A stretch of 64,000 bases of DNA from contig CAWZYM010000409.1 of the NCBI GenBank assembly GCA_963966185.1, positions 882,437-946,436 of the forward strand, in the 5' to 3' direction. Made by a program: the position numbers and the translations under genes. Under the pieces are notes generated by a model. That model searched no databases. It saw only the letters and a list, made by a program, of their open reading frames with translations, and was not told the DNA's origin. Of this stretch, positions 12,441 to 63,921 are shown one piece after another (the first letter of the stretch is position 1; each line of letters starts with the position of its first letter). The DNA is from Rhabditoides inermis (taxonomy: Eukaryota > Nematoda > Chromadorea > Rhabditida > Rhabditidae).

Positions 12441-13142
12441 CCAGAGACACTTACTTAACTTATAGAACAAGCGCAAGTAATAAATTGATCTGTCAGAGAG
12501 ATAAAAAGTTCGGTTAAAGCAAGTTTTGTTGTGTTGAAGAAGTTGTATGTATGTACGAGGTGAGCATGGGGTCTGTCGGCTGTCTCGCTTGTCTGCTTCT
12601 CTCTCCTCTTTGCTTCCGCTCTGGCTTCAAGTCATCATAATTCGCAAATTTCGTTACCACGAAGTTCAAGAATCTTTTCAACAAATCCGAATTTTCATAA
12701 ATGTATGATTTATGCAATTATCACTTTTTTGAACAGCCTGCTATGGTTCAGTTTTCGCGGTGATGTAAAACAAATACACAGTGTAAATCAGCACCTTTAT
12801 GCAGCATACAACGTATGAACAACAACGTAACAATGTGTCATAATGTTTCATAAAATGGATTGGGCGTATCTTTCTTTATCTATCGTTCTCTCGTACTCTC
12901 TTCTTTTTTTCTTCTCGTTTCATTCAAAGCTCGCAGTGTTTGTCCACAGTACACCAAACGGTAGACTTCTGAAAAATTGCAAAAAAAACTGTGTACAGTA
13001 CATAATGCGTTATCGTATCATTCTGAACGAAACATCGATTTTTTGAGGTTACTAATTGGAATCTTGTACGTTTCAGCAGCAAAACGATCGAACCGAGATT
13101 TTGCTATGATTATTCTTTGAGTTTCTGTGTTATAGTTGTTAC
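12441..13142. other. Gap between convergent 3' ends
   Basis: An AATAAA at 12479 serves the plus-strand gene. The rest should contain the end of the peroxidasin gene, but no exon completing the VWFC cysteine pattern could be found. One copy of the TACGTTTCA motif lies at 13067-13075. Confidence 0.5.
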
Positions 13143-62300: not shown

Positions 62301-63921
62301 ACGTTTCACAACTGGCGTAAAAGAAAAAAAAAGAAAATAGAGAATCAATGCTTCCACAATCATGTCACATATGTAGTACTTCCATTTCAATCAGCCCGTT
62401 CACCCACCCTTCTCTGTGAATGGGAGGTGGAGTATGTGCTGGATCTTCTTCTTCAAAGCCTCCTTGTCCAGACGACAAGCGTGCGGACACACCGTGTCGA
62501 GCAGGCTGACAATCAGTCGATAATCAATCGATAATATGCCATACAATCAATACTCGATATACTATAATTAGTCTGCATGCAGAGCGAATGTGTCAAATTT
62601 TTATTTGTAACGTCCACGAAAGTCCCGGACGTCCATGAACGTTCATGGCTCCATGAACCGGGATCACCTAACTCGAGCTGTACTGTAGTTACTCTTGCAT
62701 GAAAATAATCAAATGTTCATTCGTTGTGTAACTAGTCCTGAATGAGAAACGCTCCGAAATGTGCCAGCAAGTCTTACGAACTAATCATATCTATGATTGA
62801 TATACGTAACTTCTACTTTGTATACTTGATCGAGACTCACTCCTGCACGGTGAGCTTGGCGTGGCGGAGACGAGCCGCGTATCTGAACAAACGAGTGAAA
62901 AAATTATGTGAAAGAAGAGGTGAGAGAGAGAGAGGAGAGAGAGAAACACAGAGAAAGAAACACAAAGAAAAAGAGAGAGAGAGAGAGAGAGAGAGAGAGA
63001 GAGAGAGAAAGAGAGAGAGAGAGATGTTCGTTTTGCCTTACCTGATCGGCGCGAACATCCTCTCCACATAGTAGTACACCCCGTGGTATGCCCGTCTCCT
63101 CTCATTGGCCAGAGCGAGGATCGAACGCGCAATAGAGTTCACCACACGCTGCAAAAGTTCCAGTATGACGCATATGGTTCGATAATGACGCACTCCGCGT
63201 TGCGACAGATTGTGGCGCTGCGTCATGTTGCTTTAGTCTATGCTGTGCTCTAGTGATACGGTTCACAATACGCAGCAAATGTATCTGGATGACAGAAGAA
63301 CGACGCACTCCGCATTGCGTCAGTATTGTGGCGTTACGTCACTTTCTCTTGGTTACGTGGTATTCGGGTCACTCGCCAAAATCGGAAATCTGGACGACAA
63401 AAATTTATCTGGTGTTTTAAAAAAAACAATGTTTTGACAAAATATGATTCGAGTAGTTTGTACGTTTCAGATATCATGTATAGCTAATTCACACGGATAG
63501 CTGTAATGCATGCGTAGTGGATCTGTTCTATCAATGTTGGCTTTCATTGAAAATTGCACTAAAAACTGTCGAAATATCTTACTTAAACAAAGAAATTGAA
63601 AAATGGTACATCAATTTTCAATCGAATTTTCAAAATACGAAAATAAACAACTATTTAAAATTCTGACCTCGTTCGGGTTCTGCAGATGCACAAATATAGG
63701 ATGAACAAAGTCGCTGTTTGTCACTGAAAATCTTACAACAGTAATAAAAACTATTCAAATAAGACACAGGAACAAACAATAAAAAATAAAAAGAATACTT
63801 AAATCATTCGATAAATGTAATAACCTATGGTCAATACGGCGGTGACTCGGAGAAACGGAAAGCTGTCGGCCTCTCGTCTCACTCGCATGTCTGTGATCTC
63901 ATCCACGAAGAAAAAGTTCTT
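47332..63921 (-). CDS. Phosphoinositide phospholipase C, beta-type (5' end outside window)
   Basis: About 30 exons (x30 47332-47384 back to x1 63825-63921) join in phase to about 814 residues. Order: PH-like ([25 protein letters not shown]), EF-hand-like region ([26 protein letters not shown]), X domain (60199-58255), linker, Y domain (52002-50476), C2 (50334-47466). Catalytic residues are present: His in TSHNTYITG, Glu/Asp in CRCVELDCW, His in VVTHGPT, Glu in LLSIENHC. Y domain: [17 protein letters not shown] and [17 protein letters not shown]. The enzyme would cleave PIP2 to IP3 and diacylglycerol at the plasma membrane, normally under Gq. [21 protein letters not shown] and ILVKAKK favour the beta class. 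The long beta-type C-terminal coiled coil was not found. The linker (Ser-rich, [16 protein letters not shown]) is split by a 4.6 kb intron holding another gene. Confidence 0.88.
47399..47436. repeat. CT microsatellite in PLC intron
   Basis: A pure CT run between two C-terminal PLC exons. Confidence 0.9.
47609..47659. repeat. AT microsatellite
   Basis: About 50 bp of AT ending directly in a TACGTTTCA motif at 47658-47666. Confidence 0.9.
47703..48692. mobile_element. 990 bp foldback element with identical 343 bp arms
   Basis: Arms 47703-48045 and 48350-48692 are inverted copies. Both encode the same 74-codon ORF in mirror image, so no difference was seen there. Ends are AAGGGTCTTCTTAGATGC and its complement, flanked by TT/TAA bases. 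The 304 bp spacer has no coding capacity. It lies in the PLC intron between the exons at 47466-47570 and 48883-48985. Confidence 0.9.
49073..49119. repeat. GA microsatellite in PLC intron
   Basis: A pure GA run 20 bases from the exon at 49138-49257. Confidence 0.9.
49325..49602 (-). mobile_element. Helitron-like non-autonomous element, copy 2
   Basis: On the minus strand it runs from GTGACTGGAAACGACACCC to AGGGCGCTGCGCTCCC and CTCTCTAAT. The same ends occur at 24995-25281, with similar inner sequence (ACATGTCCTTT, TTTTCTCCGAAAGAAGTTAT on the other strand). It lies in a PLC intron. Confidence 0.6.
49669..49998. mobile_element. Foldback MITE, family A copy 5
   Basis: Inverted arms share AAAAGTACTTGCGTAAAGAG, TTCAACAAAAGCGCATGTAT and ACACAAACCTG. 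It is the shortest copy, with a GA-rich centre. It lies in a PLC intron. Confidence 0.8.
51351..51399. repeat. Perfect 49 bp palindrome
   Basis: ACGTCTCTGTTTTTGCACTC and four more bases, a single central A, then the exact reverse complement. Arms are 24 bp and the loop is one base. It lies in a PLC intron. Confidence 0.9.
52457..53322. other. PLC linker intron
   Basis: No gene was seen. A GAAACGTAT near-match to the common motif lies near 52804. A C-rich run lies near 53021. Confidence 0.5.
54262..54311. repeat. CT microsatellite upstream of nested gene
   Basis: A pure CT run about 235 bp upstream of the TATA box of the nested gene. Confidence 0.9.
54546..54552 (+). promoter_or_regulatory. 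TATA box of the nested gene
   Basis: TATATAA in GCATATATAAGAGG lies 234 bp before the ATG at 54786 and would place transcription start near 54577-54582. No other gene in the window shows so clear a TATA box. Confidence 0.6.
54786..58030 (+). CDS. Predicted secreted protein nested in PLC intron (291 aa)
   Basis: Twelve exons join in phase: 54786-54887, 54992-55108, 55704-55769, 56044-56107, 56488-56565, 56742-56790, 56834-56891, 57072-57143, 57234-57284, 57477-57539, 57761-57866, 57981-58030 (TAG). AATAAA follows at 58084. The ATG comes directly after TTCTTTTCAG. The signal peptide is [18 protein letters not shown]. The mature part looks mainly helical ([51 protein letters not shown]) with one FNKT and one SNST glycosylation site, and no cysteine was noticed. 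The family was not recognised. The whole gene sits on the opposite strand of one PLC intron (53701-58254). Part of it has a decayed inverted copy at 43.4-43.85 kb. Confidence 0.82.
56921..57060. repeat. GA microsatellite in nested gene intron 7
   Basis: Two GA runs joined by imperfect repeats fill almost the whole 180 bp intron. The last reaches 11 bases from the acceptor. Confidence 0.9.
58084..58089 (+). terminator. Poly(A) signal of nested gene
   Basis: AATAAA 54 bases after the stop codon. Only about 165 bp separates it from the next PLC exon on the other strand. Confidence 0.7.
59488..59524. repeat. GA microsatellite beside a PLC exon
   Basis: A pure GA run 15 bases from the exon at 59540-59635. 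Confidence 0.9.
60650..61198. mobile_element. 549 bp TIR element with 9 bp target duplication
   Basis: Ends are TAGGGACCACAA and TTGTGGTCCCTA. The direct repeat CATAAAGTA lies immediately outside both ends (60641-60649 and 61199-61207). A 9 bp duplication fits Mutator-like elements best. There is no transposase. The interior has a GC-rich GCGCG segment near 60783-60811. It lies in a PLC intron. Confidence 0.85.
62977..63024. repeat. GA microsatellite in PLC intron
   Basis: A GA run 17 bases from the exon at 63042-63148. Confidence 0.9.

Follow-up and report, generated by a model that had tools for sequence, protein, structure and literature searches.

Dispersed copies of a short motif in the nematode Rhabditoides inermis as probable promoter elements of individual piRNA genes

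The DNA analysed here, called the window throughout, is the final 64 kb of contig C409 (CAWZYM010000409.1, positions 882,437 to 946,436) in the 172.6 Mb, 599-contig assembly GCA_963966185.1 of the nematode Rhabditoides inermis, and its subject is a 9-nt word, TACGTTTCA, that recurs along it in both orientations. Two genes can be named in the window. A peroxidasin-like gene on the minus strand (18602..27926), already recognized in a first-pass annotation of the same DNA, is borne out by its exon text and by the Pfam families An_peroxidase and, above cut-off, I-set and LRR_8, and contains four copies of the word. Two exons at 59378..60387 on the minus strand match PI-PLC-X above cut-off and thus confirm the X domain of the annotated phospholipase C (PLC) gene; judging from open frames, the gene would span about 50–64 kb and take in nine copies. 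Beyond the X domain, 13 further pieces in this span gave no family match above cut-off, and three pieces compared with the PDB gave no PLC match. The PGAP2-like and secreted-protein genes that had also been proposed as hosts found no support, as none of 12 open reading frames (ORFs) at 31–32.5 kb and 39–48 kb matched Pfam. The window also carries a 2-kb array of about 252 copies of the 8-nt unit TCTCGTTC at 22864–24891.

All 24 copies reported in the first pass were recovered as exact matches, 11 on the plus and 13 on the minus strand, of which about 23 are independent. Dinucleotide shuffling of the window gave a mean of 0.54 copies (the largest count in 100 shuffles was 4), in line with the chance expectation of about 0.5 proposed earlier. 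Of the 24 copies, 15 have A and 6 have G immediately before the word, and 13 have C and 7 have G immediately after it, the context described as usual being RTACGTTTCA followed by C or G. The regions said to be empty (1–13 kb and 35–42 kb) are indeed free of the word from 1 to 13,066 and from 34,769 to 42,387, where uniform scatter would place 7.8 copies, the gaps having been picked post hoc. Two reverse-transcriptase (RVT_1) ORFs, at 2681–4912 (minus) and 9298–10338 (plus), both lie in motif-free sequence. Flanks had been said to differ from copy to copy, and this is true of most of them, which are unrelated to each other; the exception is the pair at 34554 and 34760, whose common flanks align with a score of 101 against 49 for the next best of 276 pairs. 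Near-identical open frames at about 32892–33233 and 35906–36241, some 3 kb apart, flank this duplicated pair at 34.5–34.8 kb.

The positions of the copies are given here together with those of a putative RNA start, taken as the T of a YRNT tetranucleotide lying at +46 to +50, counted from the first base of TACGTTTCA (the T of TACG). At lower coordinates than the peroxidasin-like gene, on the plus strand, the copy at 13067..13075 is followed by YRNT with its T at +48 (predicted 21U start 13114), and those at 15011..15019 and 17954..17962 have no YRNT in this interval. Within the gene the copies are on the minus strand, and their introns were placed by reading splice sites by eye. The copy at 19668..19676 lies just inside an intron (5′ splice site GAGAG/GTGAGG) and lacks YRNT; that at 25904..25912 lies in an intron of about 160 nt (~25943–25785), with T at +47 and a predicted start at 25866; that at 26499..26507 lies in an intron of about 190 nt (~26559–26371) and lacks YRNT; and that at 27502..27510 begins 7 nt into an intron (5′ splice site TTGG/GTGAGC), with T at +48 and a predicted start at 27463. 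Both splice sites were read for the copies at 25904 and 26499, and the 5′ site for the other two. A fifth minus-strand copy, at 28543..28551 (T at +47, predicted start 28505), falls just past the last identified exon, and all five copies at 18–28.6 kb are sense to peroxidasin. For the earlier statement that the word occurs almost only in introns, these four peroxidasin copies are the ones read as intronic.

Between the two genes, four minus-strand copies lie at 30179..30187 (T at +50, predicted start 30138), at 34554..34562 and 34760..34768 (both lacking YRNT) and at 44884..44892 (T at +48, predicted start 44845, within an 18-bp tandem repeat at 44815–44870). Three lie on the plus strand: 42388..42396, with a CAAT initiator whose T is at +49 (predicted start 42436), 43380..43388, also with CAAT (T at +48, predicted start 43427), and 47658..47666, at the end of a TA repeat and lacking YRNT. 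In the presumed PLC span, which beyond the X-domain exons rests on open frames, four minus-strand copies would be sense: 50095..50103 and 60610..60618, neither with YRNT, and 55252..55260 and 56373..56381, both with CAAT and T at +47 (predicted starts 55214 and 56335). Five plus-strand copies would be antisense: 50909..50917 (CAAT, T at +48, predicted start 50956), 51541..51549 and 61599..61607 (both lacking YRNT), 62300..62308 (CAAT, T at +50, predicted start 62349) and 63461..63469 (T at +47, predicted start 63507).

The genome-wide count called for in the first-pass annotation gave a strong excess over reversed controls. RTACGTTTCA occurs 10,496 times across the assembly compared with 686 for the reversed word, ATACGTTTCAC 3,087 times compared with 120, and CAAATACGTTTCA 272 times compared with 6. 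The copies are scattered over many contigs, and isolated ones are nearly absent from one large block of the assembly, contigs C1–C113. This block holds 40 of 120 places of a neutral 11-mer, about a third of the genome, whereas it holds 4 of 153 places of the motif pattern with A/T-rich downstream sequence (Fisher p 2e-12) and 13 of the 272 places of CAAATACGTTTCA (Fisher p 4e-13); three of the four former places have a second TACGTT in the matched letters and are array-like. The block is possibly the X chromosome, its share of about a third of the genome being bigger than expected for an X.

A feature absent from the first-pass annotation is a fixed initiator downstream of isolated copies, a YRNT tetranucleotide, often CAAT, whose T lies mostly 47–49 nt from the first base of the motif. 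Two sets of copies outside the window served to follow it. The first comprises 80 of 100 listed places (of 153, in contig order) on other contigs, after leaving out 4 in C1–C113, 9 repeating another place's letters, 2 tandem copies and 5 late in the list. The second was drawn from C114 and later contigs, taking 40 of the 87 places listed there (of 272 in the whole assembly), and was reduced to 37 by dropping three near-duplicates. Aligned on the motif alone, the 80 copies show a composition signal from +46 to +49 (A at +46 in 42/80, T at +49 in 41/80). YRNT with its T at +46 to +50 follows 59 of them, other 5-nt intervals averaging 34% and reaching at most 51%; it follows 25 of the 37 (other intervals on average 36%, at most 57%; binomial p 3.6e-5 against 34%) and 13 of the 24 copies in the window (other intervals mean 34%; p 0.035). 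CAAT in the same interval is found in 33/80, 12/37 and 6/24 copies, where 3.0, 1.7 and 0.8 respectively are expected. As an independent test, the 117 copies outside the window, and no others, were used to train a 7-nt initiator profile; slid along the 24 window flanks, it had its highest mean score in register (shift 0), ranking 1 of 100 with z 3.85. Another element, A/T-rich and lying at +18 to +24, came near register too, shift 0 ranking third of 76 in the window, after −1 and +1. The 80 copies also pass from GC-rich sequence at +50 to +66 into AT-rich sequence at +67 to +81 (p 5e-6), which resembles a published pausing signature.

On these grounds, most of the 24 copies are very probably core promoter elements of individual genes for Piwi-interacting RNAs (piRNAs), known in nematodes as 21U-RNAs, the 'Ruby' motif of other nematodes taking here the form TACGTTTCA. 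The first-pass annotation had put dispersed intronic piRNA promoters forward as its leading idea, and the genome-wide excess, the start signal at fixed distance and the near-absence from a large assembly block all speak for it, as does a Piwi-clade gene in the same genome. The latter, on contig C52, is represented by two open exons, which in the PDB match Piwi proteins best (Siwi, 4.8e-22; Piwi-like protein 1, 1.4e-32), animal Argonautes being absent from the matches of these exons or much weaker. The strongest Piwi-domain match in the genome, on C245, was considered for this role and rejected, being of the Ago1-3 type.

Several observations weigh against this reading. The YRNT count in the window is marginal, since the best control 5-nt interval also reaches 54%, and 11 of the 24 copies have no YRNT with T at +46 to +50, so that some of them may be inactive. 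No step from GC-rich to AT-rich sequence is seen in the window set (p 0.78), and that in the 37-copy set does not reach significance (p 0.25). The 80-copy set had itself been chosen with A or T at +15, +16, +19 and +20 and C at +10; because of this preselection at +15 to +20, the second set was picked by three upstream bases only. Twenty neighbourless copies in the first-fetched loci showed YRNT in 7 cases, without a peak. Finally, the same word also builds tandem intronic arrays in which the initiator is missing: among 48 copies that have another TACG(T/G)TT no more than about 60 nt away (loci L001–L006, L009–L023 and L026, many of them chosen for clusters), YRNT was found in 16 and CAAT in none, which makes clear that possession of the word is not in itself proof of a promoter. 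The second set and the arrays differ in YRNT (p 0.002). In the depleted block the initiator is not clear (YRNT 8/19, CAAT 1/19, in 20 of 100 listed places of the 3,087, one of them dropped), five of these 19 copies having another TACGTT-like word nearby; their difference from the second set in YRNT is not significant (p 0.09).

The piRNA reading leaves the tandem arrays unexplained. By eye, they form introns made of degenerate tandem TACGTTTC(A) units, often 11–26 nt apart, located on the minus strand at about 4.2–4.4 kb (L009), 3.8–4.1 kb (L010), 4.1–4.2 kb (L013) and 4.4–4.6 kb (L017) of the reverse complement, and further at about 5.9–6.8 kb in L014 and also in L063 and L124. Some of these introns start with GTACGTTT (L009, L013) and some end with TACGTTTGCAG, TACGTTTTGCAG, TACGTTTCCAG or TACGTTTCAG; the array of L012 appears antisense to the adjoining open frame. 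One word might have two roles, isolated copies serving as piRNA promoters and tandem arrays building whole introns, a proposal that we regard as unlikely. The array unit, (G)TACGTTTCA(G), looks like a splice site of either kind, 5′ (GTACGTTT) as well as 3′ (TTTCAG), so that with every duplication a further pair of such sites could arise, and promoter elements might have been seeded from arrays, or the reverse.

A splicing signal was one of the alternatives raised in the first pass, to which an RNA element acting from introns within the host transcript may be added. The intronic position of the word agrees with it, as do the five sense copies at peroxidasin and the tandem copies that end some introns elsewhere, and TTTCAG resembles the nematode 3′ splice site. 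We disfavour it, the main reason being the CAAT initiator, whose fixed spacing downstream of the motif would not be expected of a splicing element, and a further one the PLC span, where five of nine copies look antisense if the gene extends as its open frames suggest; moreover, the copies at 25904 and 26499, for which both splice sites were read, sit well within their introns. Since the PLC gene is unconfirmed outside its X domain, this alternative gains slightly and the piRNA reading loses slightly, and we still judge a splicing role improbable.

The motif could also be a promoter element for a product other than piRNA, for example short capped RNAs of another class, given that the sequence evidence points to a start-site signal and not to what is made from it. 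Against this, the motif core, the spacing, the YRNT start and the dispersal all match published piRNA loci (Beltran et al. 2019; PMC6436959), and such a product seems improbable.

Another first-pass suggestion was a small nuclear RNA (snRNA)-type proximal sequence element, here taken as driving snRNA-like genes. In layout, the window motif and the snRNA element look related: GTTTCA lies 41–42 nt upstream of the predicted start and the 3′ half of the U1 element (GTTGGC-like) about 44 nt upstream, so that, as in nematode snRNA promoters bound by SNAPc, the 3′ half stands at nearly the same distance from the start. The two are nevertheless different elements. All 15 U1 upstream regions fetched carry AAACCC(G/A)G at −57 together with a 3′ half similar to TTGGC, placed at −43 or −42; the whole element reads AAACCCGGCGCG and then the GTTGGC-like half, and none of the regions contains TACGTTTCA; the 15 come from 42 U1 matches, many of them in one array on C303, and some are nearly identical. 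Additionally, a search of the window for Rfam families and tRNAs found none. An snRNA-type element is therefore disfavoured and very improbable as an account of the window copies. Least probable of all is descent from one transposon or repeat family, to which the window pair 34554/34760, the 9 of 96 listed C114–C312 places repeating another place's letters and the 3 near-duplicates among the 40 second-set copies might point, as the unrelated flanks of the other window copies and the 80 kept copies without near-duplicates imply that repeats carry only a minority of copies.

If most copies are indeed piRNA promoters, their mode of action can be proposed from published work on related nematodes. 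A SNAPc-type factor would bind TACGTTTCA and recruit RNA polymerase II, and transcription would start at the A of the CA initiator, about 45–46 nt from the first base of the motif. The product would be a capped RNA of about 28 nt, ending at the AT-rich stretch; after removal of two 5′ nucleotides, an RNA starting with U (the T of CAAT) would be loaded into the Piwi protein and could act in silencing. The host introns would belong to ordinary genes, presumably active in the germline, and the loci would probably occur in either orientation.

This kind of system is already known, the dispersed intronic arrangement having been described for Pristionchus pacificus. According to published work (PMC6436959), the motif of 21U-RNA loci peaks about 42 nt from the 21U site, transcription begins 2 nt before that site and the start conforms to YRNT; 97% of the genic piRNA loci of P. 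pacificus are intronic, with about equal orientation. The copies described here resemble the P-type Ruby-motif loci of that species (PMC6436959) in the GTTTC core, the predicted 5′-U start about 42 nt downstream, the dispersal, the probable position in gene introns and the near-absence from part of the genome. They share the same core and the same YRNT start logic with the Ruby-motif 21U-RNA genes of Caenorhabditis elegans, whose loci, in contrast to the many contigs seen here, are concentrated in two regions of chromosome IV, within repressed chromatin (PMC6436959).

Another short sequence points to the nematode origin of this assembly. The exact 22-mer of the nematode spliced leader SL1 occurs 368 times, and SL1 RNA matches agree with such an origin, although none of the 50 listed in a family search lies above the family cut-off. 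Several occurrences are single, scattered and outside these 50 matches; such copies may be reinserted trans-spliced messages.

For R. inermis, the predicted 21U start sites can be checked directly against a small-RNA library. More broadly, a piRNA promoter system, with its motif, spacing and initiator, appears to be recoverable from bare genome sequence, and R. inermis would extend the nematode systems by one more dispersed and probably intronic case, marked by a strong CAAT initiator. Of possible specialist interest are its arrays without an initiator and the roughly one third of the assembly from which isolated copies are nearly missing.

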